From Polychytrium aggregatum (Eukaryota > Chytridiomycota > Chytridiomycetes > Polychytriales), in contig NW_026516352.1 of assembly GCF_025602895.1 (NCBI RefSeq), positions 32,582 through 96,581 on the forward strand: a stretch of DNA of 64,000 nt, read 5' to 3'. The notes under the pieces were generated by a model. That model made no database searches. It had not been told where the DNA came from and saw only the letters and a list, made by a program, of their open reading frames with translations. The position numbers and the translations under genes are program-made. Below, piece by piece: positions 13,845-48,908 of this stretch. How positions within the stretch are numbered: the first letter of the stretch is position 1; each line of letters begins with the position of its first letter.

Positions 13845-16800
13845 CTACCCCCCTCTCAAGGCCCGAGCTCCGAGAGGGCCAGGCTTCGAGGGATGAGAGG
13901 AGTGGTAGGCAGTGACAGGCTCCGGACAATGTGCAAGATTGCTGGCGGGCTCCCAGGTGCAATCCATCACCGTGTAGCCACGCCAGTGCACAAGATACTG
14001 GAGCTTACCTCGGAACAGCCTGGAGTCCAGGATCTGTTCGACTTCCCATTCGTCGTGGCCGTCGACTTGGATGGGTGGAGGGGGCGGGATGATTCGACCT
14101 GGGATCTTGTCATCGGCGGCGGGTTCGAGAAGGGAGACGTGGAACACCGGATGGATGCGCATGGACGAGGGCAAGTCCAACTTGAAGGCGCGGGAACCGA
14201 CTTGAGCGACGATCTTGAACGGCCCAAGCTTGGTGTGGTCGAGCTTGGCCGTGGGTCGCTGGGTCTTGATGTTCTTGGCGGAGAGCCAGACTCGGTCTCC
14301 AACCTTGAACGGAGGGGAAGGGGAGTGGCCGGGGTCGTAGAACTTGGCTTGGGAGTCCTGGGCAAGGGCGATGTTAAACTTGAGTTCATCATGGAGGGAA
14401 TGGATGATCCGGGCTTGATCGTCGGCGACGGAGGCATTCTTGGTGGTGCGGGGAAGGGCGACGGAAAAACGAGGGTGGTAGCCGGTGTAGGCGAAGAAGG
14501 GGGAGCAGCCGAGGGTTGCTTGAGAGGTGTTGTTGTAGGTGAACTCGGCGTGAGGGAGGAGCTGGGCCCAGTCGTCTTGCTGGAAGTTGATGAAGCAGCG
14601 GAGGTACTGCTCGAGGATGGCGTTGACCCGCTCGGTCTGGCCGTCGGTCTGCGGATGGAAGGCAGTCGACATCTTGTGCTTGATCTTGAGGCGGGTCAGG
14701 ACGGCTTGGAAGAACTTGGAGGCAAAGGTAGATCCTCGGTCTGAGACGATATCGTCTGGAAGACCGTGCTTGGTGAAGACATGCTCGACAAACATCCGAG
14801 CAGTGTCTTCGGCGTTGGCCTCGTTGCTTGACGGGACGAAGTGGGCCATCTTGGTGAAGCGGTCGACAAACACACAGATGGCTGTGTGTCCAGAGGACTC
14901 GGGAAGCTGGGTGATGAAGTCGACGGAGACAGAAGACCAAGGGCGATCGGGAACAGGGAGCGAGGCAAGGAGTCCGTAGGGCTTGTGACGGGAGTGCTTG
15001 TTCCGCTGGCAGGTGTCGCATCCGGAGACATACTCCTTGATGTAGCGACGCATGGTCGGCCAGTGGAAGGTCCGGGAGACGAGCTCGAAGGTCTTGGCGA
15101 CGCCGAAGTGGCCGGCGGTCGGCGAGTCGTGGCACTCGACGAGGATCTTGCGCTTGAGCTCGGGGACATCGGGGACGCAGACGAGACCTTCAAAGAGCAG
15201 AAGGTCGTTGTCGACGGAGTAGCCGGGACAGGAGGCAGGGTTCTTGAGGACTTGGGACAGGATCGGACCAAAGGTAGAGTCCTTCTTGAGGCTTGACTTG
15301 ATGAGGGCGGCGATATCCTCGGACTCGGGGGCAACGGGAACGGCTCGGAGGGCGGAAACGAAGAGTTTTGGTGGCAGCAGGGTCTGGGTGTTCGGGGAGC
15401 TACGGGAGTCACCCCCCTCCTTAGGGAACTTGTCCTTGCGGGAGAGGGCGTCGGCGGCATTGTTGAGGGTTCCGGGTCGATACCTGATGACGAAGTTGTA
15501 GTCGCCAAGGATCTCGGACCAACGGACTTGGCGACGGCTGAGGTTGCGGGAGGTCTGGAAGTATTCGAGGTTCTTGTGGTCGGTGACGACCTCGGTGGCT
15601 TGGGAGGAGAACTCGAGGTAGTGTCTCCATTGCTTGAAGGCTGCGACGATGGCGAGAAGTTCCTTATCATAGATTTGATAATTCATTTCCGCATCGAGCA
15701 GCTTCCGGGAGTAGAAAGGCCACGGGGTGCAGGAGGCCTTCGTCGTCGCGCTGACTGAGAACAGCGCCAAGAGCATAGTCAGATGCGTCGGCTTCGATGA
15801 CGCACTGACGCTCGGGGTCGAAGTGGCGGAGGACAGGACCGGTGCTCAGGCATTCCTTAAGCTTCAGGAATGACGTTTGAGCCGAGGGAGACCAGGAGAA
15901 CTTGATGTCCTTCTTCAGGAGGTCCGTCAGCGGGGTGGCGATCTTGGAGTAGTCCTTGACGAACCGACGGTAGAAGTTCGCCAGGCCGAGGAAGACTTGG
16001 ATGTCGTGGGCAGATCGGGGGATCTCCCACTCCTGGATGGCCTTGACCTTGTCGGGATCCATGGAGATTCCATCGGGCGAGATGATGAACCCGAGGAAGG
16101 CGACGGAGGACTGGTCGAACTCACACTTTTCAAGCTTGAGTGAGAGTCCGGCGTCTTGGAGCTTGGTCAGGACTTTCTTGACATGAGCGTCGTGCTCGGT
16201 AGGATCGGAGGAGTAGATGAGGATGTCGTCCAGGTAGACGACCACGAACTGGTCAAGGTATTCTCGGAGGACATCGTTGACGAAGGCTTGGAACGAGGCA
16301 GGAGCGTTGGTCAAGCCGAACGGCATGACGTTGTACTCGAAATGGCCGTAGCGGCAGCGGAAGGCCGTCTTCCACTCTTCACCTTCAGCGATGCGCAAGA
16401 GGTTGTATGCGCCTCGCATGTCGAGCTTGGTGAAGATCTTGGCCTTACCGAGGTTGTCGAACGTCTCGGCAATCAGGGGCAAGGGACAACGGTTCGGCAC
16501 GGTGATCTTGTTCAGGGCCCGGTAGTCGACGCAGAGACGGAGGGAGCCATCCTTCTTCTTGACGAACAGGACTGGGGCACCGGCAGGGGACTCGGAACGG
16601 CGGATGAAACCCTTGGACAAGTTCTCTTGGATGTAGGTGTGGAGGGCGTCCATCTCCGGCTTGGAGAGGTTGTAGACGGGCCCAAACGACGGAGACGCAC
16701 CTTCGACCAACGGGATCGTGTGGTCGTAAGGGCGGTGCTGGGGGAGCTTGTCGGCCTCGGACTTGGAAAACACCTTGGCAAAGGACGAGTACTTGGAGGG

Positions 16801-17755
16801 GACAGAGGGCTCGGCCTTGGGCTTGGCTCCAGCGTCGACGGAGCAGAGGGACAGGACTCGGGCAGCATCCAAGAGGAACACTTCCAGGCCTTCCTTCTGG
16901 ACGGCGTGCTGGAAGGGGATGCTGCCGATCAGGCTGACGCTGGGCAGGGACTGGGTCTTGGTCTTGGTCTTTGGGACGGCAGGAGGCAAGGCAGGACTGG
17001 GCTTGGGCACGGCAGGAGGCAAGGCAGGGAGGATCTCGGGCTCGGCTGGGGACTCGGCTGGGGACTTGGCAGGAACAATCTTGGACGCGGGCAGGGACAC
17101 GGCAGGCTCGGCGGGGACCTCAGCAGGAGACTCGGCAGGCGGCTCGGCAGGGCTGGACCTAGAGGACTGTGGCTCGGGAGAGAACGGGGAGGCCAAACTG
17201 TGGATAGAGGTGCAAGGCAAGAAAATAGAGTCATGGTGCCAGTCAAAGTAGGGTTTGTGTTTCTTGATCCAATCCATACCCAAGATGATCGGGTATGAAG
17301 CCAAGGGAATCAGCGCGAACGAGATTTGTTCATAGTGGCTGATGCCTGTGATCATAGAAACACAAACTCCAAGACTAGACTCCATCGAAGAACCATCGGC
17401 AAGAGTGATGACGAAAGAAGTTGCAAAGGTGGGGAGAGCGTGGGTTGCGGCGAATCCAGTGTCCATAAACGAAGTAACCGCGCCGGTATCGATCATGGCG
17501 GTTGCCCGTATGGACTCTGGACCGCACAGCAGAGTCACAGCGAGGGAGGGCTGACGTTGGATGTCAGGCTCGGGAGGCGAAGACGAAGAAGCAAGAGCGG
17601 TGGAAGCGGTGGCAATGGTGACGGGGGCAAGATGGCAAAAGGCAGAAGAGTGATTTACCGTGGAGACATTTACAGGAGGAAGATTTATGACATGATTGAC
17701 GCCTAGGAAAGCTCCTCCGACCTTTTCTAGGCAGAGAAGTTTTCCTGGTTGTCAA
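13845..17755 (-). pseudogene. pol: Family 1 pol, frameshifted near 15714
   Basis: The pol frame opens around 17755, overlapping the end of gag in the -1 frame. Order: a retropepsin motif (AMIDTGAVTSFMD), a linker of Pro/Ala/Glu repeats (about 16900-17170), RT (YLDDILIYS), RNase H, integrase and chromodomain as in copy A. At about 15711-15720 this copy has GTAGAAAGG where copy A (reverse complement) has GTAGAAGG. The extra A ends the upstream frame at 15667; the downstream frame is open from 15776 to 13845. The indel is in a homopolymer, so sequencing error is possible. Confidence 0.9.
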
Positions 17756-21408: not shown

Positions 21409-24226
21409 TTAGAGACTTTCCTCGAGATCAGAACGCCATTTCTTGTGCATCAAGCGCGTTTTGGTGTTTCCACGACGCTTTTGCCTTTCAGGGTACATTT
21501 CCTTCGCCTGCGGGTGTCCCAAACGAGCCGCTTCCTTGTAGAGCATTGTGATGAGATCCGGACGACCCGTCCCAAGTTCTTGATAGCATTTTGCTGTCAT
21601 AAAAGCGCAGTTTGGGTTGGTGGGGTCGTCAAACATCTTGAAGTACGTCAGAGCAGCCTTCAAATTAGGTTTTCCAAAATGACCTTCATATTCAAGATTT
21701 CCCAGGCAGTAGCTCGACAGAGATCCGGCGGAAGTCAGGGTAGCTTGGAACAGCTCATGCGCCTTGGCAAGATTCCTTTCAACACCGATGCCTTCCAAGT
21801 AACATCGAGCAAGCATGTATGTACAGAGGGCTTCGTTCTGAGTACCAAGTGCACACCACTTGAGATGACGACTGTATGTCGGGTGTTCTTCTCCATTGAA
21901 GCCATGGAATTGGGACTCGATCTTGAAATACGTTGGCCAATCCACATCATGTGTCTTGCCTTTGGTCGAGAAATAGATCATTCTCAAATACGTAGCGACC
22001 TTGAATAAATCTGACAACTCGTCTCGACTGGGACCAGGACCGGGGCCTTTGGAGGGGTTGGTTCGATTCCATGCCTTTGCCCAGATGGCGAATGCAGCTT
22101 CTTGATCTTTGGGACGCCCGAGGCCGAGAAAGAGGATCCAGCCGTAATGGATCATGAGCTCAACGAGCTCGCGCGTTGTCTGCTTCTTTTGCCCGTTCGA
22201 GTGATGTTCGTAAATATCAGCAGACACCTTCCAGACCTCTTCATGAATTGAATATTCATGAAGTTTCAGGATATCCTGGGCAGCTTCCAAATACTGATCG
22301 ATGTCAGCACTCTCGAGCATCGTCATGAGACTGGGGTCGGGTGTTGGATATGCCGGTGTACTGGTGGGCCGCATGCGCTGTGTGGCCTGTGGCTGAGTCG
22401 ATGGTTGCCGTTCGCCAGTGATAATCCGAGGTGTTGGAGGTATGGGGAGCGCTGCAAGGACCGCATCTAAACGAGTAACGACTTCAGATGCGGTGATCCG
22501 CGACCTTGGTTCCATGCATTGGCATTTTCGAAAGATTTCGAATAAATCCGTTTTTTTGCCATCCTCCGATACGATGGTTGGACATTCGCCTTTCAAAATT
22601 CGGCTTTTGATTTCATCTTCATCCAATGGGACCTTTGGATCGGCTCCGAACCAAATCGGATTTCCCCCACCAAAGAAGATTTCGATGAGGATGACCGAAA
22701 GAGAAAAGATATTAGATGGCTTGGAAGTACCGACTTTTCCTCTGAGCCTCTCCGGTGCTTGGTACTGGTTGGCATTTTGAGTCGAGGGGTTGAAGGGGAT
22801 CAATGACACAAGAGGCTGATTATAGTCGTCCATTACGACTGTATCGATGTTGAGCGAGAGGTGGGAAACATCCAACTGATGCATAGCTTCAACTCCAGAA
22901 GCGATACCGATAGCAAGTAATAGCTTGGCATCAAGCGAAAGAGCAATTCCTTGATCGACGATGTACTGGCGAAGCGTTGTCTTGAACATTGGGACCATGA
23001 ACCAACACGGTTGTGTCGAGTCACAACCACCAAGGCATTGGAGGAGGTTTTTGTGAGTGAAGGTGGACATGCTTCTGACATTCAACTGGAATTTAGTGAC
23101 TTCAGATACCGATTTAGGAGACTTGATCTCGTAAAACTTGAGAATGGCTTTCACACCTTGATATCTGACGACGATCGACCCATCAACAGGAGATGGATGG
23201 TCTTGGCAAATACTGTCGAGTGCCCATCCGTCGAGCCTCCAAGGCTCCTCCGCTATTGCGATGCGATAGGCCCGATTTGATGCGTTGTGTTCAAGCCAGG
23301 CCAGGAGTTTCACGGCGATGCTGACGATGGGAGGCACATGGTGGCCTTGAGGCGGGACCTTGGAACATTGCTCCAAGACAGTGACCAAGCGGATGAGCCT
23401 GGTGACTTCGTTCATCACTCGTTCCGGAACTACTCCTTTGACGTTGTCAACTTCAAGTGCTTTACCGAGTCTTGCGAGTATTGCTTCATCAACTTTCTTC
23501 TCCACCTCAACGATCGGATTGAGCTCGGCTTCGTAATCTGGTACGACAGTGTTTTCAAGTTTCAATCTCCTCTCCACTCGTCGGAGGAGATTGCAAAACT
23601 CAGCGCAGAGTCCGCGATAAAAATCATGAACTCGGTTGTAGGAGAAGTATAACGGTAGCATATCTTCCTGGACGATAAGCAAGTTCCATATGATCTTGAC
23701 CTGATCCAAGTAGCGAGCCAGGTCGGCGAGATGCCGTCTGACTTCATCCGAAACGGCTCTTTTGTCCATCGAACGTGGTGTTGTGTTTGCGTACAAATGA
23801 ACCAGATACACAGTCAGCAAAAGTCCTGTCGTCGGCTTGATGCCGAGCACCTGGGTTCGACGAGGCAGCATGCTTACAGGTCCCTGAGCTGATTATTAGT
23901 GCGTGATGCACGATAACCTTCGAACAGATTCGCAATACTGGTCTTGACGACATTGAGGAATAATCTCCAGGAAATCGGATGGAAAATATCATTGTCTTTT
24001 CCTTCTTTTATAAGTTGGAACAAGCTTTGGAAAAGGGGTCTGAATCCCTGTTCGTTCGGGTTCTGCTCGAGAATATCTCGAACGTCTGCGAGGAGAGTGC
24101 GACGCAAGGCTGAAAAAGAGAGTGGTATGTTGAGCAATCACATACGAGGAAATGGATACGACCTGGAAACGCTCGACACGTATCATTGAACCACTCACGC
24201 GGTTCCATATTCGCCTTGGGATACAT
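21409..24226 (-). CDS. Pseudokinase-Sel1 repeat protein K2 (three exons)
   Basis: Model: exons 24226-24199, 24109-23878 and 23758-21409; introns of 89 and 119 bp with GTGAGT/TTTTTCAG and GTAAGC/AAAAG borders. Phases fit and the product is 869 residues. Roughly 1-300: a helical region resembling the K1 N-terminus. Roughly 300-560: kinase-like, with lysine in KAILKFYE but HLSLNIDTVVMDD instead of HRD, no DFG (VSLIPF), and APE kept (YQAPERLRG), hence probably catalytically dead. Then a Pro/Thr-rich linker and Sel1 repeats (MLARCYLEGIGVERNLAKAH, YCLGNLEYEGHFGKPNLKAA). Probably a signalling scaffold; the pathway is unknown. The first exon is only 28 bp. Confidence 0.8.
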
Positions 24227-25026: not shown

Positions 25027-25848
25027 ATGAGCAACCCCCGCCCACTTCCGGAAGCCTTCCTCAAGACCTTCCGTGCCCCAGTGTTTACTGGGAAGAGCCG
25101 CTCCTCCTCGGTGGAGGACTGGCTGCAGCAACTCGAGGACTACCTCGATGCTGCCCAAGTCGCCCCCACCCACCACATCGTCGCCGCCAAGCTCTGCTTA
25201 AAGGACCAGGCGTACCGTTGGTACCGCCGCCAAGGGTTCGACGAGCAGAGCGAAGGTGTGTTTGACGACTTCAAGGACCGCCTCCGTCGCCGCTTCGGCA
25301 GCCCCAATGCTGAACTCATTGCCCGTGACAAGCTATACTCTCTCGTGCAGCGTGGTTCTGTGACCCGCTACATCGAGGAGTTTGAAGACCTCTCCTCCCA
25401 GATTGAGGAGCTGGGCTCTGCTGATGCGATGTACCTCTTCCAGAAGGGCCTCAAGCCCAAGATCAGAGAGTACATCGCCAGCAACCCTGATGCCCGCAAG
25501 TCCCTGGACGTGATGATGGACGTTGCCGAGAACCTCGACAACGTCCAGTACCATGGCCGCCAGTTCTACCCGCAGCTGGCAGGCGGCCATCGGTCTCATC
25601 ACGTCCCAGCCCGTCCGCCTCGCCCGGCCCCGCCCGCAAGACCCATGCCTGAGCCCATGGACGTTGACGTCAACGCCATGGAGGCTCGTGGCCCTCCCCG
25701 CTCCCGGTTCCAGCAAGCTGCCACTGTCTCCCCCAAGGACAGACAGAAGCAGGAGGACCTCCGCCATGGTTCCTGCTTCTTCTGTCACCGACCGGGACAC
25801 CAGGCCAAGGAGTGCCCCATGAAGTCGGGAAACGGCCGACCCTACTAG
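25027..25848 (+). CDS. gag: Family 3 Ty3/gypsy Gag
   Basis: 273 residues starting [15 protein letters not shown]. Gag core: [46 protein letters not shown]. An Arg/Pro/His-rich linker precedes a canonical CCHC zinc knuckle [14 protein letters not shown]. It overlaps the pol frame by 37 bp, with pol in the -1 frame. Confidence 0.93.
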
Positions 25849-28800
25849 GTGGCTCTGGAGCCCTAGTAGGAGACCAACGCCGTGGATTGCTCAATGCAGT
25901 CCACGCGTCTCCAGAGGAAGTTCACCTCGCCCCCTCCCCCGAAGGAGAAACAAACCAAGTGTTGTGCGTCGTGCGAGAGGTGCATGGTGGCGCAAGCCGC
26001 CTGCCTCTCCACGAACGTGAAGAGAAAACCAAAATTGAAAACCAAAACAAAAAAGAAAATCAAGAACCCTTGAGGGACAGGACCGCCTGTGCCCTCACCC
26101 CTGTCAAGTCGTGTGTGTCGGATGCTTCCGACATGTGTCCGCAAGCCGTGGACGTCGTGTGCAATGGCGTGCTGACGCCGCAGGCCCCCGCAATGGCCGA
26201 ACCCTATCCAAAATGTCCGAGTGGCCGTGATGAAGCCAACCAAGACCAAGTGTCGCCCGTTCCCCCAAGTCAAGTCATGGTGCAGGAGGCTGTGCAGGAG
26301 GACCATGAAGAGTCCCTGCTGTACCTCCCTGCCACCGTCCAAGGTCACACCGTCCGAATGATGGTGGACTCTGGAGCAAGCTGCAACTTTGTCAGCAGAC
26401 GCTTGCTCCAGGAGCTCAACATACATGCAACCAAGAAGAAGTCGCCGATGAGTGTGGCGCTTGCAGACGATCGTGTGCAGCAGTGCACACACCAAGTGGT
26501 CCTGCGAGTGGCCCTCCATCCCAAGTACCATCCTGTCCTGTTGTTCCAAGTGATCGACACCAAGTTCGATGCCATCCTCGGCATGAGCTGGCTTGCTCGT
26601 GCCGAGCCGACTCCAGTCGTCGACTGGAAAGGCCGCACTGTCCGTGTTGGCCCTGACATTGTCCTGCAGGGCATGGCCTCACCCAACATGCCACCTCTCC
26701 TCTCAGCCATGCAATTCAAGAGGCTGATCAAGAAGGACACGTCGTTCCTCTGTGTCGTGCGTGAGGTCGACGACACCGACCAAGCCGGTCCCGGTCCCCC
26801 GCCTGTGGTGACCAAGCTGCTCGACGAGTACAAGGACGTATTCCCCGACCAGTTGCCACAATGCCTGCCACCCCAACGCACCGTCGATCATCGCATCGAC
26901 ATCGAACCAGGCTCGTCGCCTCCGTCAAGACCGACGTACCAACTGTCGCTGACGGAGATGGACGAACTCAAGCGCCAGTTGGATGACCTCCTCGCCCATG
27001 GGTTCATCCGCCCGAGCCAGTCACCGTATGGTGCACCAGTGCTCTTTGTCAAGAAGAAAGAAGGTGATCTCAGGATGTGCGTCGACTATCGCGCACTAAA
27101 CAAACAGACCATCAAGAACACCTACCCGTTGCCCAGGATCGACGAGTTGATGGATCGTCTGAGTGGAGCAAAGGTCTTTAGCAAGATAGACCTCCGCTCA
27201 GGCTACCATCAGATCCGCATCCACGAGGATGATGTCCACAAGACCGCCTTCAGGACTCGCTACGGACTGTACGAGTTCCTAGTGCTGCCGTTCGGATTGA
27301 CGAACGCACCTGCCACGTTCATGCAGCTGATGAACGATGTGTTCCGCCAAGAGCTCGACAACTCTGTCATCGTGTACCTGGATGATATCCTTGTGTACAG
27401 CAAGGATGAAGCGACCCATGAAGGTCATGTCGCCCGCGTGCTGGCCAAGCTACGCGAGCACAAGTTGTATGCCAAACTGTCCAAGTGTGAGTTCTTCAAG
27501 AATCAAGTCCCGTTCCTGGGACACGTTGTCTCAGGAAGAGGAATCGAAGTCGACCCCGCCAAGGTCAAGTCTGTGGTCGAGTGGCCGCCGCTCGCATGCG
27601 TCTCTGACGTGCAGTCGTTTCTCGGTCTCGTCAACTACTACCGCCGATTCATCCCCGATCTGGCGCGCACTGCCGGTCCACTCACAGACCTACTCCGCAA
27701 AGAGTGCCCCTTCGTGTGGGACCACCCACAACGCCAAGCGTTCGAGACCCTCAAGCACGCCTTGACGAACGCTCCTGTCCTCGCTGTGTTCGACCCGAAC
27801 ACGGATGTCTCCGTGCACACCGACGCCTCCGACTTTGCGGTGGGAGCTGTTTTGATGCAGGAGGGAAGGCCCGTTGCCTTCGAGTCGCGCAAACTGTCCC
27901 AACACGAGATCAACTATCCCGTGCACGAGAAGGAGCAGCTTGCGATCATCTACGCGCTGCAGAAGTTCCGAGTGTACCTCCACGGTACCGCCAAGCCCTT
28001 CAAGATTGTGACGGACCACCAGTCACTGCGTTACCTCGACACCAAGAAGAACCTGAGCCGACGCCAAGCGCGATGGATGGAGTTCCTCGCCGAGTACAAC
28101 TACGAGGTTGTATACCAGAAAGGCAAACTCAATGTGGTGCCTGACGCACTGTCCCGACGCCCCGACTACCAATTGGCGTCACTGTACGAGTCGACTGTCA
28201 GTGTCGACAACACGATGCTGGATGTTGTCCGAGACAACATCGCCAACGACAAACAGTTCGGAGAACTGTTCCGAAAGGTGTCTAAGCTCCCCAAGGACGA
28301 CGAATCATCCGAGTACACAGTGCGTGATGGCCTGCTCCTCCTGAAGAAGGACAGCCGTGTCTGTGTGCCGGACATTCCGTCGTTGAAGACCAAGTTGCTC
28401 CAAGAGGTCCACGACTCGCCCCTCGCTGGACACTTTGGAGTCGAGAAGACATACGACCGACTGGCCAAAGTCGCATACTGGCCTGGAATGAAGCGCACCG
28501 TCGAGAAGTACATCGAGTCCTGCCATACCTGCAAGATGGTCAAGTCACGCACGACCCGAGAGCAAGGATTGCTGCAACCCCTGCCTGTTCCCGACCGCCC
28601 CTGGACCAGCATGTCCATGGATCTCATCACGCATCTACCGACGACCAAGTTGGACCACGATGCAATCGCTGTCTTTGTCGACAGGTTCAGCAAGATGGCA
28701 CACTTTGTGCCGTGCCAGACGACATGCTCCGCGCCTGACCTTGCACTGCTGTTCTTCAAGCATGTGTTCAAGCACCACGGCCTCCCAAAGTCCATCGTCA

Positions 28801-29744
28801 GTGATCGAGACCCCCGATTCACCTCCTTGTTTTGGACAAGTCTGTTCGACCATCTCGGCACCAAGCTGAACATGTCAACCTCGCACCACCAACAAACGGA
28901 TGGACAGTCCGAGCGGACGATCCGCACCCTCGAGCAATACCTGAGGACATACGCCTCGACCAGCCAAGACGACTGGGACATACAGCTGAGTCATGCAGAG
29001 TTTGCATACAACACCGCCAAGTCGAGCACAACTGGCTTGAGCCCCTTTGAGGCGCTCTACGGATTCCAGCCTGATGTTCCCACCTCCTTGACACTGACCG
29101 AGTCCACGGCTGGATTGCCTCCCAAACCAAGTGCCTTTGTCAAAGATCATCAAGTCCGACACAAGATGATCGCCGACGCGCTCACGGATGCGCAACAAGT
29201 GATGGCGAAGTACTACGACCGCCGACACCAGGATGTCTCCTTTGAAGTTGGAGACCTTGTCTACCTGGACGCCGACAACATCAAGGTCCCCGAAGCCCAG
29301 TCAAAGAAGTTGTTGCCCAAGTACCGAGGACCGTTCAAGATAGCGGCCCGACCCAGTCCCCTCAACTACCTGTTGGACTTGCCACCTGGAAGCAAGCTCC
29401 ATCCTGTCTTCCATGTGTCCAAGCTGCGTCGCCACACGACCCGCAGTCCAGCACAGTTCCCCGACGCCGACGAAGGTGTCCCGGACGACGCACCACTGGA
29501 AGACGACCTCGGACAATACTATACTCAAGAATATGAAGTCGAAAGGATCGTGAGGCACAAGAAAGTGGCTGATGGGTCACTTCGGTTTTATGTCAAGTGG
29601 GTTGGTTACCCACACTCGGGCAACACATGGCAAACACTGGAGGACTTGTCCCATGCACCCGAGGAGCTGAGTAAATACGGTAAACACCTCGAGGAGCCCC
29701 AAATAAAGAGCACACGCAGGGCTCCTCGCAGGAAGCCTTCTTAA
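25812..29744 (+). CDS. pol: Family 3 Ty3/gypsy pol polyprotein
   Basis: About 1310 codons, open throughout. Retropepsin [13 protein letters not shown] near 26360; RT with YLDDILVYS near 27380; RNase H with [15 protein letters not shown] near 27820; integrase zinc finger ([10 protein letters not shown] ... SCHTCKMVK); DDE core ([31 protein letters not shown]); C-terminal chromodomain ([17 protein letters not shown]) near 29580. The frame extends back over the gag end, so a gag-pol fusion by -1 frameshifting is likely; the first ATG in frame (25812) need not be used. Confidence 0.95.
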
Positions 29745-30062: not shown

Positions 30063-31296
30063 GATTGCCTCGGGCACTCCTGCACCATACGGCCTCGGAC
30101 GAGCACCACAAGCCAACCAGTGATCAAGCACCATCGTTACTACATAGCGTTCAATTTGATATTATGCCGTCGCCAGCGCCGCTATGCGGTGGGAGGTTGC
30201 ATCAGGCACTCCTGCACCATACGGCCTCGGACGAGCACCACAAGCCAACCAGTGATCAAGCACCATCGTTACTACCCAGCGTTCAATTTGATATTATGCC
30301 GTCGCCAGCGCCTCTATGCGGCGGGAGGTTGCATCAGGCACTCCTGCACCATACGGCCTCGGACGAGCACCACAAGCCAACCAGTGATCAAGCACCATCG
30401 TTACTACCCAGCGTTCAATTTGATATTATGCCGTCGCCAGCGCCTCTATGCGGCGGGAGGTTGCATCAGGCACTCCTGCACCATACGGCCTCGGACGAGC
30501 ACCACAAGCCAACCAGTGATCAAGCACCATCGTTACTACCCAGCGTTCAATTTGATATTATGCCGTCACCAGCGCCTCTATGCGGTGGGAGGTTGCATCA
30601 GGCACTCCTGCACCATACGGCCTCGGACGAGCACCACAAGCCAACCAGTGATCAAGCACCATCGTTGCTACCCAGCGTTCAATTTGATATTATGCCGTCG
30701 CCAGCGCCTCTATGCGGTGGGAGGTTGCATCAGGCACTCCTGCACCATACGGCCTCGGACGAGCACCACAAGCCAACCAGTGATCAAGCACCATCGTTGC
30801 TACCCAGCGTTCAATTTGATATTATGCCGTCACCAGCGCCTCTATGCGGTGGGAGGTTGCATCAGGCACTCCTGCACCATACGGCCTCGGACGAGCACCA
30901 CAAGCCAACCAGTGATCAAGCACCATCGTTACTACATAGCGTTCAATTTGATATTATGCCGTCGCCAGCGCCGCTATGCGGTGGGAGATTGCATAAGGCA
31001 CTCCTGCACCATACGGCCTCGGACGAGCACCACAAGCCAACCAGTGATCAAGCACCATCGTTACTACCCAGCGTTCAATTTGATATTATGCCGTCACCAG
31101 CGCCTCTATGCGGTGGGAGATTGCCTCGGGCACTCCTGCACCATACGGCCTCGGACGAGCACCACAAGCCAACCAGTGATCAAGCACCATCGTTGCTACC
31201 CAGCGTTCAATTTGATATTATGCCGTCGCCAGCGCCGCTATGCGGTGGGAGATTGCATCAGGCACTCCTGCACCATATGGCCTCGGACGAGCACTA
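30063..31296. repeat. 132-bp minisatellite, nine full units plus a partial
   Basis: Units begin at 30063, 30195, 30327 and so on every 132 bp, each containing CACTCCTGCACCATACGG and GTTCAATTTGATATTATGCC. The ninth full unit ends at 31250 and a degenerate tenth runs to about 31296. Units differ by a few substitutions (CCTCGGGC/CATCAGGC, CGCCGCTATG/CGCCTCTATG). Because 132 is divisible by 3 and no stops occur, two plus-strand frames stay open for over 430 codons. I regard this as a property of the repeat, not proof of a gene. A 35-bp piece of the unit lies at 24561-24595, left of copy D. Confidence 0.93.
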
Positions 31297-31542
31297 CAAG
31301 GCACTCCATGAACCAAGTCCCTTCGTTGTCCGGCTTCGACACCTGATCGGGCTTTCTCTTTTTCTCTGTAGTGGTATATGACTCTTTGCTTCAGTCAAAC
31401 GTCCAGGTAAGTTCATCCTCTCTTTCCAATCCATTTTTCTCGAATACATAACCGTCCCACCGTCTATCGTTTCACCGAAGCGCGCCTTTGGTCCGGAGCG
31501 TGAGGTCGTTTTGGCCCTTTTTTTCTGCACCACCAGCAAATC

Positions 31543-41527: not shown

Positions 41528-42794
41528 TCAATCCAGGCGAATGGCGTTTGCATACTTGGACGAGAAACTCCTCCAGCCACTCCTGTAGCCGTCGTTCTTG
41601 ATCATACGATCGTAGTTGAGCATGCGGAAGAGGATGACAGCAATGTACGGGGCGAGGACGGGATGGTACTTCGAGAAACCATTTCTAGTTTCGAAGAACG
41701 GAGTGGGAATAAACACTGTCGAATGATCACGATATAAGTCAAATTTGTGGGTTTGGACAAATTCGAAGACGATTCTGTCACAATAACCATAGATACCACC
41801 ACTCCAATGAGAAGTGGATTTGAAATCGACATAGAGTGCGAGCAACTCTGGATTCTGAAGAACAATGTCCTTGACGGTCAACATCGGTTCAGTGTTGCGG
41901 CGTCTCTGTTCATTCGACTCGGTGATGGCTTGACGAAGGAAGGTCGTGTCGATATCTGAAAACACAGTGTCAACATTGACATCCTTGAAGTGACACACTA
42001 TCTTACAACGGGCTGGATTTTGATACAAATATGTTAGGATATCGTGAGGCGTTACTCACGGACAACATGTAGGTGCGCCGTGCACGGAGCAATCTCGACT
42101 TACATCGTGTGTACTTGTCATTGTCGCCTTCGTGGCGCTTCTTGGAAGCGGACACATCGTTCATATCGCGAACATGCTTTCGAGGCTGGTCACGACCATC
42201 TTCATCGGCTTCAACTGGGGCCGGGCGCTTGGGCGCAGGACGAGCGGACATGTCGCGACGGTCATCTTCAGTGGGCGTGGGGGAAGCATAGCCACTTGCA
42301 GCAGCGTTGGCTGCTGGGGCCCGAACGCCTTGGGCCGATGGAGGGGCGGCGGGTTCGGCAACGACAGAAGGTACTGGAGCCGCACCACTGTCGGTGAAGT
42401 CGGGATCGCGAGCTCCAGCAGCCCCGAAGGTAGGAGCGGTGGGTTGATCGGGCTGAACCGTCGTAGCGGGTTCGGCAACGGTAGGGAACGCGGCTAAGAT
42501 ATCGTCCAAGTGGAGGGAGTCGACGGAGATTGGGTCACTGGAATCGGTAGCTCCAAAGTCAGGAGCATGAGGGGCGGCATGCGCGAAGGCATGAGCCGAG
42601 GGAGCAGGCGGATTCCTGGGAGCAGGATCGGGGCCAGGGGGAGGACAACCGGGGGCGACCGAAGAAGCCGTCTTCTCATCGGCGATTGGAACGCATGGCC
42701 AGCTTGCGGATACAGGTGCTGGTCTCGATGATCTCGTGGTTAATAACCTGAATGAACTCCGGGCTCGCGAAGGAGGGATTGGCGATGGTATCAT
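41528..42794 (-). CDS. Unknown protein X2, paralogue of X1; 5' end uncertain
   Basis: Exons 42794-42056 and 42012-41528 with a 43-bp intron (GTAACG...CCTAAC...CCAG); the frame is kept, 407 residues if ATG 42794 is the start. A Pro/Ala-rich disordered region (residues 1-180) with acidic/basic patches (PRKHVRDMNDVSASKKRHEG) precedes the X1-like domain: HFKDVNVDTVFSDID, VKDIVLQNPELLALYV, HPVLAPYIAVILFRML. The proposed start is only 13 bp from the transposon at 42810, and gene Y, interrupted by that transposon, runs into this region in another frame. X2 may really be the 3' part of Y joined by an intron I could not define. Confidence 0.65.
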
Positions 42795-42807
42795 TCCTGA
42801 CTTGCGA
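42676..42807 (-). pseudogene. Gene Y, 3' fragment left of the transposon
   Basis: Joined across a single TA to 46607-47191, this continues the Y frame for 43 codons (SQVRNDTIANPSFASPEFIQ, then an amphipathic helical stretch) to TGA at 42676. It overlaps the start of X2 in a different frame; either Y ends here or an intron leads into the X2 frame. Confidence 0.6.
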
Positions 42808-42809
42808 TA

Positions 42810-42836
42810 CAGTCAAACCAGAAAGAAACGGGACAG
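42810..42836. repeat. Terminal inverted repeat, left (Fanzor side)
   Basis: 27 bp beginning CAGTCAAACCAG, preceded by TA. Identical over 26 of 27 positions to the repeat at 60176-60202. Confidence 0.92.
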
Positions 42837-42849
42837 TCACTTCCTGGCA

Positions 42850-45545
42850 TCAGCGACACAGGTCTGCTGATCCGTAGACCCCAGTGGGCAGGTCGTGCGA
42901 TTGTTTCCCGTCCTGGTTGGCAATCTCTTTGTTTTGGGTGGGTCCGGAAGCACAGTCTTGAATACACTCGGTCCGATCTCCTGTGGCGATGATCGACTGG
43001 CATACCGAGATCATGTTCCTGGCTGCATTGATGTCTCGATCCCACAGCGTATGGCAGCTTGCTACAGCTCCGGACAAAGTGTGGTTTCTCGATATCAAGA
43101 TGCTCGACCTTCTCGAGTCGCTTGGCTTCCCGACAATGTGAGCACACCTGGGATGTGTTGAACTCATTCACCGAGCACACATGGATCTTGGAGACGGCTC
43201 GGTCTGGTGGGCGTCTCTGGTGATGGTGGAATTGCTCAAAGTACTTGGCAAACCTGAGTCTCCTGGGACTGGATGCGTATCCCCTCCCTTGCTTCCACGA
43301 AGCATTCCCAAAGGCAATCACCACGTCGGTCTCCCTTGGTGCCTGGTCGATGACTTGCTTGCACATCTCGTGGACAGTGCGCTGTCGCTTGCTGTGGAGA
43401 TCGAGTCGCTTGAATCGCCGTCGCCGGGTCAGGCTGAAGTACAGCTGCTTTGTCCAGCATGTCTCCATCGAACACATGGCGAATGTATCGCAGGAAGGAA
43501 GCCAACCCAGGGATCTTGGGACTTGGTGTGGTGCTCATCCATTCCTGCAGATCAAGGGCCTTGTGGGTGCTCTGGATCCACTTGGTCGCCTGACTGGTGC
43601 CAGTTCGATGCTGGTACTCCTTGTTGGAGAACGAGACGATCTTCTCGTTGGCACGTTGTGTCTTGGTCACCTTGACACCGTCTTGCTCCTGGATGGATGG
43701 TTGACCGGGTGCTCGATTGACAGCGGTGAAGATCGATCCCACTCCAGGGTCGATCCCGATCCATGTGGTCCGAGAGTCGTCAATGGGACCGACCCCTGGT
43801 ACTGGATCTTCTGCTCGGGAGTGAGTGTGTTCACCTTGGTCTTGGGTACCGGCTTGGTATCAGGGTCATTCTTCCTCAGAATCTTGTACCTGAGTGTGGT
43901 GATCGAGCACCCGACCCCATCGGTGGTGATCTCACAGCCAAAGAGCTGCTTCCCCTCTTTCCTGACACCAAAGAGTCTCGATTCCAGCTTGAAGTTGTTT
44001 CGCCAGAAGATCTCTTGTTTTGTGGTGCCATTGACCTTGGTCTTCAGGTCGTCCCACTTGAGCCCAGTGCCAGTCTGAGATCCAAGAATTTGATACATAG
44101 CTTTGGTATCGAGCTTGACATACTTTGCTCTGGCATCGCAGAGCGGGACCAAGGTGCACTGTGCTCGAGGGATGTTGAGGCGCTTCTTGGTCTGGGCAAG
44201 CCGGTCGGTGAGGCGCTTGATCCGCTTCATGTTCACAGCGATCTTCTTGTCCACCTCCTCGTGCTGGGTATGGAGTGCGTTGTATTGATCCGACTGCCTA
44301 CGTTCGATAGCGCGACACATCTCCTCATTCAGTCGTCCACGATCTTCTTTCAGATCATTCGGTATCCCCTCACGAGCCTGGGGATGATTCTGTTTCGAAT
44401 GGTCGCCACGAACAGTGTCTCCTTTCGGTGGGTCAGGCGAGAGACTTCACTGGCCAATACTGGTACGACTTTGTACAGGCTCTGGTGGCTTGTGTAGCGA
44501 AAGCTGTAGAGCTGCTCGGCATGGTGTGTGAAGGATTTCCTCAGATCAACGAGGAGTGTATCGGAGAGGGGATTCTCCATCAGCTTCATGCACTCGTCAA
44601 CGTGTGTATGTCGCTTTGCACATCCCTTGGGAGCAATCCAGTACCAGATTGCAGAATCGACGGAGGAGAGACCAATACCGATCGAGAATGTGGGTCTCGC
44701 AGTTGACTGCATAGGTTTTGATGGCCAGATCTATGACTTGGGACCCAGTACCCTTTGGAAGGGATACTGGAGGTAGGACACACGAATCGCTCCATGTACT
44801 TCGATACAGTTCATATGTGTCGAGGAGATGCCTGTCATCTTCTGGGGTGTTCGTCCTGGCACCCACTGTTCCTCTCTGCACCATGTTGAAGCACTTTCGA
44901 ACGAACGAAGGATCGCTCGACGACACAGTGGGGATGGTGATGCCCTCGTCCAAGCATCGCCTGAGATGCAGCTCCAGGAGCCGAGATGCTTCGTACTGCA
45001 CGTGTGTCATGGCCCTGGACAGTCTCCTCGATCTTGTCGTGTAAGGCGCCGTTCTTGATGATGGCGCCAAGAGTGCACTTGATGATCGAGTACTCTGCCT
45101 TGGCATACTCGTTTGGTTCACAGGCAGGCTCAGTAGAGCTCCAGAGAGGTTTGTTCGCTGAACATTTGGAGCTGTTGCTTCTCCCATGACCCTCCTGTTT
45201 GCAGGTCGGGCAGATCAGGACCTTGGGTGCAGGCATCTCGACCACGAGGGCCGGAACAGCGATGTCTTCACTGGACTCGTCTGGAGGGGGTGCTTGGCAA
45301 ACGGCCCCAAAGACAGACGCTGAGTCAGAAGGGGGGGCCAACTCGGTTCGGGCCTTGCACTTCTTGGTGAAGGGCTTGACATGGTTGGTCAGACCACAGG
45401 CACGACACGATTTGATGACTAGTTTCTTGGCAGCATGTTTGTCGCGGGGCTGCCCAGGATCTGGATTTGGGTCGGGAGGAGATTTTTTCTTGCGGGGAGG
45501 CATCTGTCGCGATTTCGACACCCCGCTGGTTCTACCCATAGGCAA
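42850..45545 (-). pseudogene. Fanzor (eukaryotic TnpB-like RNA-guided nuclease), frameshifted
   Basis: Minus-strand coding sequence of about 900 codons spread over seven overlapping frames (45545-44835, 45187-44597, 44712-44350, 44320-43667, 43742-43236, 43477-42791, 43167-42850). Order: basic N-terminus (PPRKKKSPP); two Cys-rich motifs (CRACGLTNHVKPFTKKC, CPTCKQEGHGRSNSSKC); helical N-domain (HVQYEASRLLELHLRRC); RuvC-I GIDPGVGS near 43750; RuvC-II region VVIAFGNASWKQG near 43300; candidate alternative Glu and zinc ribbon VNEFNTSQVCSHC near 43160; RuvC-III WDRDINAARNM at 43044-43012. Known family members use a transposon-end-derived RNA to cut DNA. Six single-step frame changes make this copy non-coding as written, by decay or by assembly indels. 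Confidence 0.88.
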
Positions 45546-45590
45546 GAAAAAACCAAGGGTGATTTTGACGCACTTTTTCGATGGTATGAT

Positions 45591-46523
45591 TCACGCCCAG
45601 AAACGCATCGCGCGCTCAATCAGCCGTGGGAAGACATCTGGAAGCACCCTCCGCACGGCGGACTCGAACAGGGTCACCATCCCGATCCTGAACCCCTCGG
45701 AGGCATTCAGCGTTGCTGCCTTCCTGTACTGATGCTTCACAATCCCAAAGAAGTTCTCGATGGGATTGAAGTCGGGCGAGGCAGGTGGGGTGAAGATCAC
45801 TGACCATCCTCGGCGATCGATGCAGTCCAGGACAGCCATTGTCTTGTGCATGCTGACATTGTCCATCACAATCACAGAGTCGTCTGGGAAGGTCGCTCGC
45901 TCAAAGAACTCGACCATCGAGTGTGTCTTGAATGATGTGGGGATGTACATGCGATGCAGCACACCAGAGTGGTTGATGGCAAATGCAGCCGAGACAGACT
46001 TGTGCTTCATGTGATTGCGCTGGCGAAGCGGAGCACCCTTCGGTGAGTATCCGTAGAGAGGGAAAATGGATCTCCTGATCCCTGTCTCGTCGACAAAAAC
46101 CAATCGTCGTGGGTCGATGGAGCGGACCTGGTCCCTGAACTGTGCCACTCGCTCATCCAGTCGCTTGGACTTGTAGAGGTGTGTTGCCCTCTTGTGTGAG
46201 AGACCTGCTCGCTGGATGGCAGTGTGGCAGAGTGAGAGTGATACTTTCCTCTGGAGGATGGACTCGAGCTTGCATCGCAGCACAGGACCAGTCTGGAACG
46301 GGTCCTGTTCAATCAGGGTGCGAATGACTGGACATGCCTGCTCGAAGAACGTGGATCTGCGAGCTGGGACCCGGGATGGGTCATCCAGCTTGCATCCTCG
46401 GTGCCATCGATGGATGGTGCTCTTGGATACACTGAATATGGAGGCGACCTTACGCAGGCTATGGATGAGGGCGTAGCATCGCAATGCGGCGGTGCGAAAG
46501 TCGGATGTGTGGCGAATGGTCAT
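45591..46523 (-). CDS. DD34E transposase, IS630-Tc1-mariner superfamily
   Basis: 310 residues from ATG 46523 (MTIRHTSDFRTAALRC). N-terminal helix-turn-helix (LRKVASIFSVSKSTIHRW), a second HTH-like region (VSLSLCHTAIQRAGLSHKRA), then the catalytic core: first Asp in VFVDETGIRR, second in VIVMDNVSMHK, Glu in PDFNPIENFFG with 34 residues between the last two (DD34E). All catalytic residues are present and the frame is intact, so this copy may still move itself and, in trans, the other copies. It is about 97% identical by eye to the truncated copy at 60259-61086. It binds the TIRs and inserts at TA. Confidence 0.95.
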   Translation of the reverse strand: MTIRHTSDFRTAALRCYALIHSLRKVASIFSVSKSTIHRWHRGCKLDDPSRVPARRSTFFEQACPVIRTLIEQDPFQTGPVLRCKLESILQRKVSLSLCHTAIQRAGLSHKRATHLYKSKRLDERVAQFRDQVRSIDPRRLVFVDETGIRRSIFPLYGYSPKGAPLRQRNHMKHKSVSAAFAINHSGVLHRMYIPTSFKTHSMVEFFERATFPDDSVIVMDNVSMHKTMAVLDCIDRRGWSVIFTPPASPDFNPIENFFGIVKHQYRKAATLNASEGFRIGMVTLFESAVRRVLPDVFPRLIERAMRFWA

Positions 46524-46579
46524 GGCCAGCGCGCGATGGTTTTGGGTAACAAAATATTCGATCAATGGTCAAAACCCGG

Positions 46580-46606
46580 GTGTCCCGTTTTTTATTGGAT
46601 TGGCTG
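46580..46606. repeat. Terminal inverted repeat, right (transposase side)
   Basis: Reverse complement begins CAGCCAATCCAA and ends AACGGGACAC; followed by TA. It diverges from the left TIR at internal positions but keeps both ends. Confidence 0.9.
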
Positions 46607-47191
46607 TAGTTGGCTGAAATGTCCTTGGAGGACCACCATGCCATTTTCATCACTGGGCTTCTTGGGGATACACTCGAGGCCGAATCCATCGGGCACGAAG
46701 CGAGCCATCTTCGTATATACGCCGTCTTTACCGAGATTGTAGAATCCCAGCTTCTGATGACTAGGTGCGGGAACGGGCTTATCTTTGTGCTTGTAGAAGA
46801 CCCGCTGGAAGAGTGCGATGTCGGGCGACGGGACGTAGCGGAAACTGCCGTAGGGTGGTATTTCCCTGCGTTGGTGGGTCTCGAGGTCGAATTTGGAGAG
46901 AAGTTTGATGGCGTCAGCACGGTAGCTGCAGTCTGCATTCAGGGTTGCAGCTTTGAGTTCGAACAGGAACTCGTCGATTTTGTCAGCAGCCCGACAGTAG
47001 ACGCTGACATCTTTCGGGTTTCTCAATCCATATTCTTGGAAAGACTCGCCGAAAAGATCGCGGCATTTGTAACGACCTCCGCGAATGAGTTCGAGCTCGA
47101 GGAACCAAAGATCGGTAGTATTGTTGGGCGCCTTGATGTTGGTGCGAATGTAGCACCCCTTGGGCTTGGCGGGATCGGCAGAAGGCGGCAT
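46607..47191 (-). pseudogene. Gene Y, 5' part, interrupted by the Fanzor transposon
   Basis: ATG 47191 (MPPSADPAKPKGCYIRTN) opens a 195-codon frame up to the TA at 46607. Without the transposon the frame continues at 42807 and ends at 42676, 238 residues in total. Soluble, mixed alpha/beta character (LWFLELELIRGGRYKCRDLF, PPYGSFRYVPSPDIALF); no family recognised. The insertion truncates it after ...GHFSQL with a few transposon-derived residues. Whether Y is a separate gene or the 5' part of X2 is open. Confidence 0.7.
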
Positions 47192-47671: not shown

Positions 47672-48805
47672 TCAGTTGGAGCGAGTGAGCGAGTTGATCA
47701 GTGCTTGGGAGCGTTGGTAGTCCACTGGCACACCAAAACCATGGAAATAGCATTGAGCTAGTCGCTCGGTTGCTTTGCGGCAGCCCTGCATCGACGACCG
47801 TTGGAACCAAGTGACTGCCTGCACCGGATCGGCAGACACACCATGTCCGTGAGCCAAGAAATCTCCGATGATGAGCTGCGAGCCTGCATGACCGAGCTTT
47901 GCGGCCGACATGAACACCTCTGCTGCTTTCACCAAGTCCTTTTCAACGCCAACTCCATCGATATAGCATCCTCCCAAGTTATAGAGTGCATCGAGATTCC
48001 AGCAGTGGGATGCCAGATTGAACCATTCAAAGGCCTTGGGGAGATCTTGCAACACAATCTCGCCTTCCAAAAACACATTGCCCAGGCAGCACATTGCCGG
48101 GGCATACCCGCGATCTGCGGCGGATTTTATCCAGAAGAAGCACTCGCCGTTCGACTGGGGAGTACCTCTGCCCTCGCGAGTCAGGATGGCGAGGCCGAGT
48201 TGTGCCTCGGCGTTGTCGTTGAGGGCGATGATTCGGACCATGTCAGCACCTTGCTTTGCTTGCACAGGGCAACCCAGTCCCTCCAGGTAGCAGCGAGCCA
48301 GGAGGAGCTGACCCGGCCAATGGCGGCGAGCAGCGATCTTGGCCCACTGGAAGAGGAGCTTGAAGATGGGCTCGGTTTGGCTGCCTGGTGCCGGGGGATT
48401 GCAGATGAACGGCGTTGCCTTGAAGGAGATGCTGCCGTATCCGGAAACGTCGCAGAGATCGACTAACACCTGGCTCGCATATCGAAGGTTGTGGTATACG
48501 TATGGTGCCCTGCTGACCGACATCCAGAGATTGAAGGCCCGGGTGTAGTCGATAGCCGTGCCGATACCCAGCCAATTCATCCAGGCCAGATGGAAGCGGG
48601 CATTTGGATCCAGATCGCTCTTGGAACACATGAATGCAAAGGCATCGATCCAGGCCTGGTGGTTGCTGGGAACAATGTCGATCAACACATCGGTGGCACC
48701 GACGACTTGATTATAATTGGGGCTGATCAGCATCTCGAAGAGCTCGTCGAGCGATTCGACGTCAGGCTCGGAATCGGTCTTCACGGCGGGTTTCTCTACG
48801 AGCAT
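47672..48805 (-). CDS. Sel1-repeat protein
   Basis: 377 residues from ATG 48805 (MLVEKPAVKTDSEPDVES). After an acidic N-terminus it carries successive Sel1 repeats: RFHLAWMNWLGIGTAID, LLLARCYLEGLGCPVQAKQG, AQLGLAILTREGRGTPQ, AMCCLGNVFLEGEIVLQDLP, LYNLGGCYIDGVGVEKDLVK, LIIGDFLAHGHGVSADPVQA, LAQCYFHGFGVPVDYQRSQ. No kinase domain is attached, unlike K2-K4. Sel1 proteins are usually adaptors; partner unknown. The frame opens upstream of the chosen start with a hydrophobic stretch, so a longer N-terminus is possible. Confidence 0.9.
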   Translation of the reverse strand: MLVEKPAVKTDSEPDVESLDELFEMLISPNYNQVVGATDVLIDIVPSNHQAWIDAFAFMCSKSDLDPNARFHLAWMNWLGIGTAIDYTRAFNLWMSVSRAPYVYHNLRYASQVLVDLCDVSGYGSISFKATPFICNPPAPGSQTEPIFKLLFQWAKIAARRHWPGQLLLARCYLEGLGCPVQAKQGADMVRIIALNDNAEAQLGLAILTREGRGTPQSNGECFFWIKSAADRGYAPAMCCLGNVFLEGEIVLQDLPKAFEWFNLASHCWNLDALYNLGGCYIDGVGVEKDLVKAAEVFMSAAKLGHAGSQLIIGDFLAHGHGVSADPVQAVTWFQRSSMQGCRKATERLAQCYFHGFGVPVDYQRSQALINSLTRSN

Positions 48806-48908
48806 GGCGATGGATGGAGAACGATGAAGGAGAAAGATCACAACGCCCCACTCACGGACATGAAGAGCCCACAAATATGTCCGAGGGATGAAATCACATG
48901 TTCATTCT

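Follow-up and report, generated by a model that had tools for sequence, protein, structure and literature searches.

What does a transposon gain from carrying a Fanzor? The question is raised by an element in the window, i.e., the whole stretch of 64,000 nucleotides from Polychytrium aggregatum that was analysed. The unit holds both a transposase and a Fanzor gene, and its relatives in the genome comprise open copies, Fanzor-less copies and two different Fanzors. Fanzor-bearing mariners are already known; Fanzor1 was described together with a transposase in the Mariner elements PUl-1 and PGv-1 in 2013 (PMC3627910, in its accessible parts). The window unit is a new one among them, with an unusually informative population. 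The first-pass annotation could match it to no named element; it is indeed new, yet its kind has been published. Two Fanzors on one transposase module, the one-sided insertion flank and the CACTA-like group described below go beyond that annotation. Because of homology, selection and insertion flanks we lean towards the view that in this Tc1/mariner transposon the Fanzor, a predicted RNA-guided nuclease, favours retention of the element at sites that carry a motif.

Anatomy of the element

A Tc1/mariner-type element occupies positions 42808-46608 of the window, the TA duplication included. The inverted ends are imperfect: the two arms, each 28 nt with the TA, are 82% complementary. Both genes are located on the same (minus) strand, Fanzor downstream of the transposase. 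In the following, family W is the family of the window element and family A a sister family which comprises most of the copies fetched outside W. Group B denotes Fanzor copies in a CACTA-like repeat, and L numbers denote fetched places. The features are:

42808..42835, plus strand: Fanzor-side inverted end, TA included (arm alignment; the end recurs genome-wide)
42808..42957, minus strand: 3' end of the Fanzor half, conserved and presumed to encode an omega-RNA (conservation in W pairs)
42837..45545, minus strand: broken Fanzor gene, limits approximate (comparison with the open frame of copy L002)
45591..46523, minus strand: DD34E transposase, open, 310 aa from ATG (DDE_3 at 3.1e-23; triad spacing)
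46581..46608, plus strand: transposase-side inverted end, TA included (arm alignment; the end recurs genome-wide)
42003..42807, minus strand: interrupted host open frame, downstream part, approximate (492-codon frame across the site in the empty allele)
46609..47191, minus strand: interrupted host open frame, upstream part (ORF list and empty-allele frame)
42788..42807, minus strand: host flank, would-be guide (position by analogy with SpuFz1 as given in the accessible parts of PMC10432273)
46609..46612, plus strand: transposase-side host flank, putative place of the target-adjacent motif (GTTG here, unlike the TAA type of family A)

An exact empty site exists on another contig (C5:123531-123657). 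There, the joined flanks match at 100% over 127 bp and contain a single TA. A stop-to-stop frame of 492 codons spans this site; thus the insertion breaks an open frame, and a second copy of the locus exists without the insertion. The first-pass annotation had placed the element at 42810-46606, with an empty site in a host gene. The limits are right to within the TA, and the empty site holds.

The transposase ORF (45591-46565, minus strand) matches PF13358 (DDE_3) at 3.1e-23. The catalytic triad consists of D145, D221 and E256, and 34 residues separate D221 from E256. Protein homologues number 336 at E <= 0.001, the best with 35% identity and some named IS630 family. A candidate N-terminal helix-turn-helix for end binding (HTH_23) scores 0.0019 and 0.0016 on the transposases, below the curated cut-off.

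The situation of the Fanzor is different in that the window holds a broken copy. This follows from the comparison with the open 896-aa frame of L002, which reveals 45 mismatches and ten insertions of 1-2 nt. The C-terminal piece in the window matches PF07282 (Cas12f1-like_TNB) at 0.0012, below the curated cut-off; in the open copies L030 and L032 the same profile scores above it, at 1.7e-9 and 2.9e-10. The motif D-X(125,275)-[TS][TS]-X-X-C4 finger-X(5,50)-RD defines Fanzor/TnpB (PMC3627910, accessible parts). L030 and L032 fit this motif, with D-to-TS spacings of 178 and 197, TS..C..C and RD; it is absent as a single frame in the window copy. Open W Fanzor frames of 850-896 aa are present at seven other fetched places (L002, L004, L005, L006, L008, L009, L010), and the frame is not open in L001, L003, L007 and L012. 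L004 and L010 probably represent a single insertion that is present on two contigs. Thus, a Fanzor sequence is present on the strand initially claimed, as a broken gene with open copies elsewhere. A protein search with an open Fanzor yielded no relative at E <= 0.001 among 8000 candidates scored. In viral contigs the search pattern matched 53 stretches, none of them a relative, and a PDB search returned weak matches only. The structure model is poor, with a mean pLDDT of 49.3.

The dN/dS values are 0.26-0.47 for Fanzor (pairs within W, A and B) and 0.17-0.20 for the transposase. This shows, as judged from substitution patterns, that both genes, which are open in many copies, are under purifying selection. 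Ends, TA duplication, DDE_3, Fanzor pieces and empty site jointly confirm the initial description of a Tc1/mariner-type transposon with a DD34E transposase and a Fanzor, and it is close to certain that the window element is one transposon unit.

Pairing of transposase and Fanzor in the genome

A query with the whole element matches end to end in at least eight places, the window included, and partially in others; with 40 of 1693 candidates scored this count is a lower bound. The ends are far more numerous. The transposase-side end is found at 288 places with at most one mismatch, the Fanzor-side end of family A at 337 places with at most one mismatch, and the W-like Fanzor-side end at 25 places exactly and at 352 with at most three mismatches, group B included. 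The reversed-pattern control gave 0 in each case.

A Fanzor sequence adjoins the transposase in all 34 fetched places that hold most of the transposase gene. Fourteen of these (L015-L028) were chosen solely by their match on the transposase side, and all 14 carry the start of another Fanzor. The 34 places are L001-L028, L031, L082-L085 and L087; L029, L030 and L086 were left out as repeats of L015, L016 and L022. The set contains haplotig pairs or places with common flanks (L004/L010, L005/L007, L013/L014, L022/L084, L023/L024). For L015-L028, L082-L085 and L087 the stretch covers the first part of the Fanzor only, and the Fanzors of L013 and L014 are truncated. Outside the set are deletion derivatives with short transposase remnants, i.e., L058, L059 and a second copy in L008; L058 retains 41 transposase residues and has no Fanzor match at threshold. 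Family A ends were paired from the first 100 of 294 transposase-side and the first 100 of 337 Fanzor-side matches. Among the matches listed this gave 40 pairs: 31 span 3.2-3.8 kb, two 1.1 kb and seven 283-385 bp.

It was claimed at the outset that the two genes form one unit; chance nesting would have shown itself in that most transposases with these ends lack Fanzor and most Fanzors have other ends. The census did not refute the unit and supports it. That a Fanzor was nested by chance in a single mariner copy is hardly credible: nesting of such elements in other repeats does occur, as group B illustrates, but the end-to-end matches, the complete pairing in 34 places and the predominance of full-length end pairs led us to reject it. 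Fanzor copies with other ends do exist, in group B, and the pairing in the mariners is non-chance all the same. Elements consisting of a transposase only, suggested by many matches of 1 kb, were also rejected; longer stretches show a second, diverged Fanzor alongside.

Group B deserves a separate description. CACTA (EnSpm) transposons are characterized by ends starting with CACTA and by a target duplication of 3 bp. Group B copies combine the mariner Fanzor-side end and a Fanzor of about 88% DNA identity to W (three copies examined at length; rows at 85-89% identity to W were taken for the group) with a repeat of 3.4-3.8 kb that has CACTAT at both ends in three of three copies. The 3-bp flanks, read by eye, match in two of the three. 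L032 and L034 have an open Fanzor frame, and in L032-L034 the transposase is reduced to a remnant of about 50 bp. In L011 the flanking context is that of group B and a mariner transposase is kept beside a broken Fanzor, from which it is likely that a whole mariner was nested there and that the transposase was lost later. Group B thus likely originated from a mariner nested in a CACTA-like repeat, and this suggests that a Fanzor may have passed between transposon superfamilies within one genome. The recurrent Fanzor-side flank of the TACAGTC[TA]ATCC group had been considered as a sign of site-specific insertion. This was rejected: three extended copies are located at the same place in the 3.4-3.8 kb repeat, so hitch-hiking explains the flank. 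Transposase_21 has 29 matches in the genome. In the literature searched, in its accessible parts, no paper pairs Fanzor with CACTA; one that contains Fanzor and EnSpm treats them separately.

One transposase, two Fanzors

When families W and A are compared, the two halves of the element behave differently. The transposases share 97% DNA identity (dS 0.089), and the Fanzors are far diverged (dS about 1.5). Three family A copies are available in full (L029-L031, two of them among the 14 places above), 3.74 kb each; L030 has open frames for a Fanzor of 779 aa and a transposase of 310 aa. Aligned with L030 in steps of 100 bp, the window element is 32-71% identical in the Fanzor half and 94-100% in the transposase half, and the step in identity sits at the transposase stop. 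At the protein level, transposase identity amounts to 97.88% inside W and 97.87% inside A, and to 96.85% when members of the two families are compared, with one fixed difference, the last residue (five W and 14 A sequences with open frames of >280 aa; L015, L016 and L022 were taken out as repeats of other loci). As far as these sequences go, two families with nearly one transposase and different Fanzors are thereby shown. A sister family with almost the same transposase and a very different Fanzor amounts to a natural test of the role of Fanzor.

How the halves came to differ can be read in two ways. Ongoing gene conversion between two old families would keep the transposase halves near-identical, and the W copies are in fact mosaics of 150-bp blocks with 0 to 21% divergence; the sharp step at the transposase stop rather argues for a single exchange of halves. 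We consider conversion a strong contender, if somewhat short of even chances. The main reading stands either way.

A comparable pattern has been described. Among related mariners the transposase half is retained, and it is the other half that varies (PMC3627910, accessible parts). Elements of the PUl-1/PGv-1 type resemble the window element in that a Mariner transposase and Fanzor1/Fanzor reside between TIRs with TA duplications; according to what is accessible of that paper, the named set is single-copy and viral, and the other half is replaced by a methyltransferase and other nucleases; the comparison follows the published description. By contrast, we find hundreds of end sequences in one genome, two diverged Fanzors on one transposase half and a one-sided flank. 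The literature searched, largely without subscription papers, contains in its accessible parts no genome with one transposase, two Fanzors and different insertion flanks.

Insertion flanks and the predicted motif

Among the matches listed, family A has 63 unique sites, and in all of them (63 of 63) an A directly follows the TA on the transposase side. As background, A follows TA at 557 of 3204 TA sites in the window (17%). The base after TAA is biased as well (T31 A21 C9 G2, p 1.5e-9). The neighbour on the Fanzor side is unbiased (A20 C21 G30 T16, n=87 among the matches listed). Read on the Fanzor strand, (A/T)TTA precedes the insertion point of family A, on the side away from the would-be guide. 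W sites have A in 7 of 14, which is above background (p 0.005) but below family A (63 to 5 vs 7 to 7, p 0.0005). A third end variant (GGATTGACTGTA) has A in six of eight sites among the matches listed, L006 included. These flanks were taken from the first 100 of 294, 273 and 337 matches, of which the transposase-side list (294) begins with flanks that have a base other than T at the 12th position, and were made unique: 78 to 63 for the transposase side and 100 to 87 for the Fanzor side of family A, and 13 to 10 for W (G variant). From the list of 273, 16 unique W-type flanks were used. The 14 W sites consist of these 10 unique W sites (G variant) together with L001, L005, L006 and L012; L003, a nested copy, and the remaining seven third-variant sites were not counted.

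Is the A part of the element? The uniformity of the 63 sites would be expected if it were. A genome-wide search for the family A end followed by C, G or T retrieved six rows, five of them unique, with exact ends. Further, a diverged empty site of family A (C408, 83% identity) aligns ungapped, and in 35 unique end pairs only the TA repeat stands out (2-base repeats after TA in six vs 2.2 expected, 3-base repeats in none). The exceptions and C408 argue that the A is host DNA rather than a fixed part of the element, and a contribution of the element itself is very improbable.

We consider it rather probable that the one-sided flank of family A is the trace expected of a Fanzor target-adjacent motif, by analogy predicted to be TTA. 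The flanks would then predict a nuclease motif ahead of experiment, and this renders the retention hypothesis directly testable. The main rival holds that TAA is preferred by the transposase or the ends, with Fanzor as a conserved cargo whose role is unrelated to insertion sites. W and the third end variant are also above background for A, hence part of the preference may be the transposase's. The short Fanzor-less derivatives with listed flanks have TAA in six of six unique sites, so that Fanzor would need to act in trans. Against this, the transposases of W and A are almost the same and their transposase-side ends differ by one fixed base, yet the flanks differ as given above; and the bias is one-sided. 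A transposase dimer is expected to yield a symmetric preference. We regard a transposase preference as a possibility to be taken seriously, albeit not as the probable one.

On the preferred reading, retention through Fanzor, events may proceed as follows. Cut-and-paste movement of the unit at TA would be the work of the transposase. An omega-RNA would be transcribed from the 3' end of the Fanzor half, with the host sequence beyond the Fanzor-side end as a guide. Fanzor would then cut the site wherever it is empty, be it on the sister chromosome, on the homologous one or following excision, and the element would be copied back into the cut site by repair. Family A insertions with the motif (TTA with A or T before it) in their transposase-side flank would be favoured, and one-sided TAA would result. 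Only tentatively do we go on to propose that retention is due to homing, i.e., that the family A nuclease selects insertions that show TTA on the Fanzor strand, and that it does so in trans for derivatives lacking Fanzor as well. The excess of A over background in W makes this proposal somewhat less probable. IS200/IS605 elements use another transposase chemistry. In the plasmid gene drive by their TnpB the guide likewise keeps a record of where the element inserted, and the nuclease acts on that site when it is empty; this drive is bacterial and experimentally shown, whereas here we infer its logic (PMC11870625, accessible parts).

At 24 family A sites no exact empty allele was present among the matches scored (40 of 83 and 40 of 295 candidates), and eight of the 24 are filled on a second contig; of four W sites tested, one has an exact empty allele, the site on C5. 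In this small sample, without a control transposon, the difference is in line with homing.

The putative guide RNA was approached through the terminal 150 nt of the Fanzor half. They diverge by 0-0.7% in six W pairs which reach up to 21% elsewhere. Such a conserved 3' end fits an RNA scaffold, presumably an omega-RNA. In some W pairs blocks elsewhere likewise come close to 0%, thus homogenisation is possible for the conserved 3' end. Predicted folds of the presumed omega-RNA are no better than those of shuffled sequences (z -1.08, -1.07 and -1.45), and W and B show little covariation, one of 26 pairs being compensated. In the six deletion derivatives of family A that were fetched, 169 nt or more remain of the Fanzor-side end and 99 nt or more of the opposite one; in L030 the Fanzor stop is 134 nt from the end.

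Another close parallel is Spu-1/SpuFz1 of Spizellomyces punctatus, in what is accessible of PMC10432273. Saito et al. report that no transposase was found within the Spu-1 repeats, and the TAM of SpuFz1 is CATA; our unit includes its transposase, and the motif predicted here is TTA. In both systems a Fanzor lies between inverted repeats and Fanzor-less ghosts keep the 3' end. Fanzor loci and ghosts of Spu-1 alike share a conserved CA upstream of the 5' repeat (PMC10432273); there, as here, the conserved flank is solely on the side of that repeat.

A mariner-derived Fanzor in a CACTA-like repeat

A repeat of 3.4-3.8 kb bounded by CACTAT ends is found in L032, L033 and L034, the copies in which a mariner Fanzor-side end and a Fanzor lie inside a CACTA-like repeat, and in the extended stretches L037-L039 (contigs C79, C24 and C1). 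The Fanzor of this repeat is mariner-derived; the mariner transposase is absent from it. Apparently, the repeat is present in many copies in the genome. L011 looks like an intermediate which still possesses the mariner transposase.

Deletion derivatives, nesting and second-contig sites

The short deletion derivatives of family A, the sister family with a far diverged Fanzor, retain 169 or 217 nt of the Fanzor-side end (L054-L059; 450 nt in L059), i.e., a stretch longer than the inverted repeat. In keeping this end they resemble the ghost loci, copies without Fanzor, that PMC10432273 reports for Spizellomyces.

Family W, that of the window's element, nests in itself: in L003 (897-1500) and L013 (3804-4407) one copy sits within another, at about position 604 of the latter and in opposite orientation.

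Of 24 tested family A sites 8 were filled on a second contig, and among the scored matches none of the 24 had an exact empty allele. For some of the genome, the assembly seems to contain the two haplotypes side by side as separate contigs.

Other features of the window

14-2821, 7529-11407 and 13845-17538: frames similar to the retrotransposon polyprotein at 25812-29744
21409-23871: protein kinase with Sel1 repeat
25812-29744: open retrotransposon polyprotein of 1310 aa (reverse transcriptase, RNase H, integrase, chromodomain)
30065-31300: tandem array, 132-bp unit, 9.4 copies, 97% matches
47672-48874: Sel1-repeat protein

Long open frames run in the tandem array.
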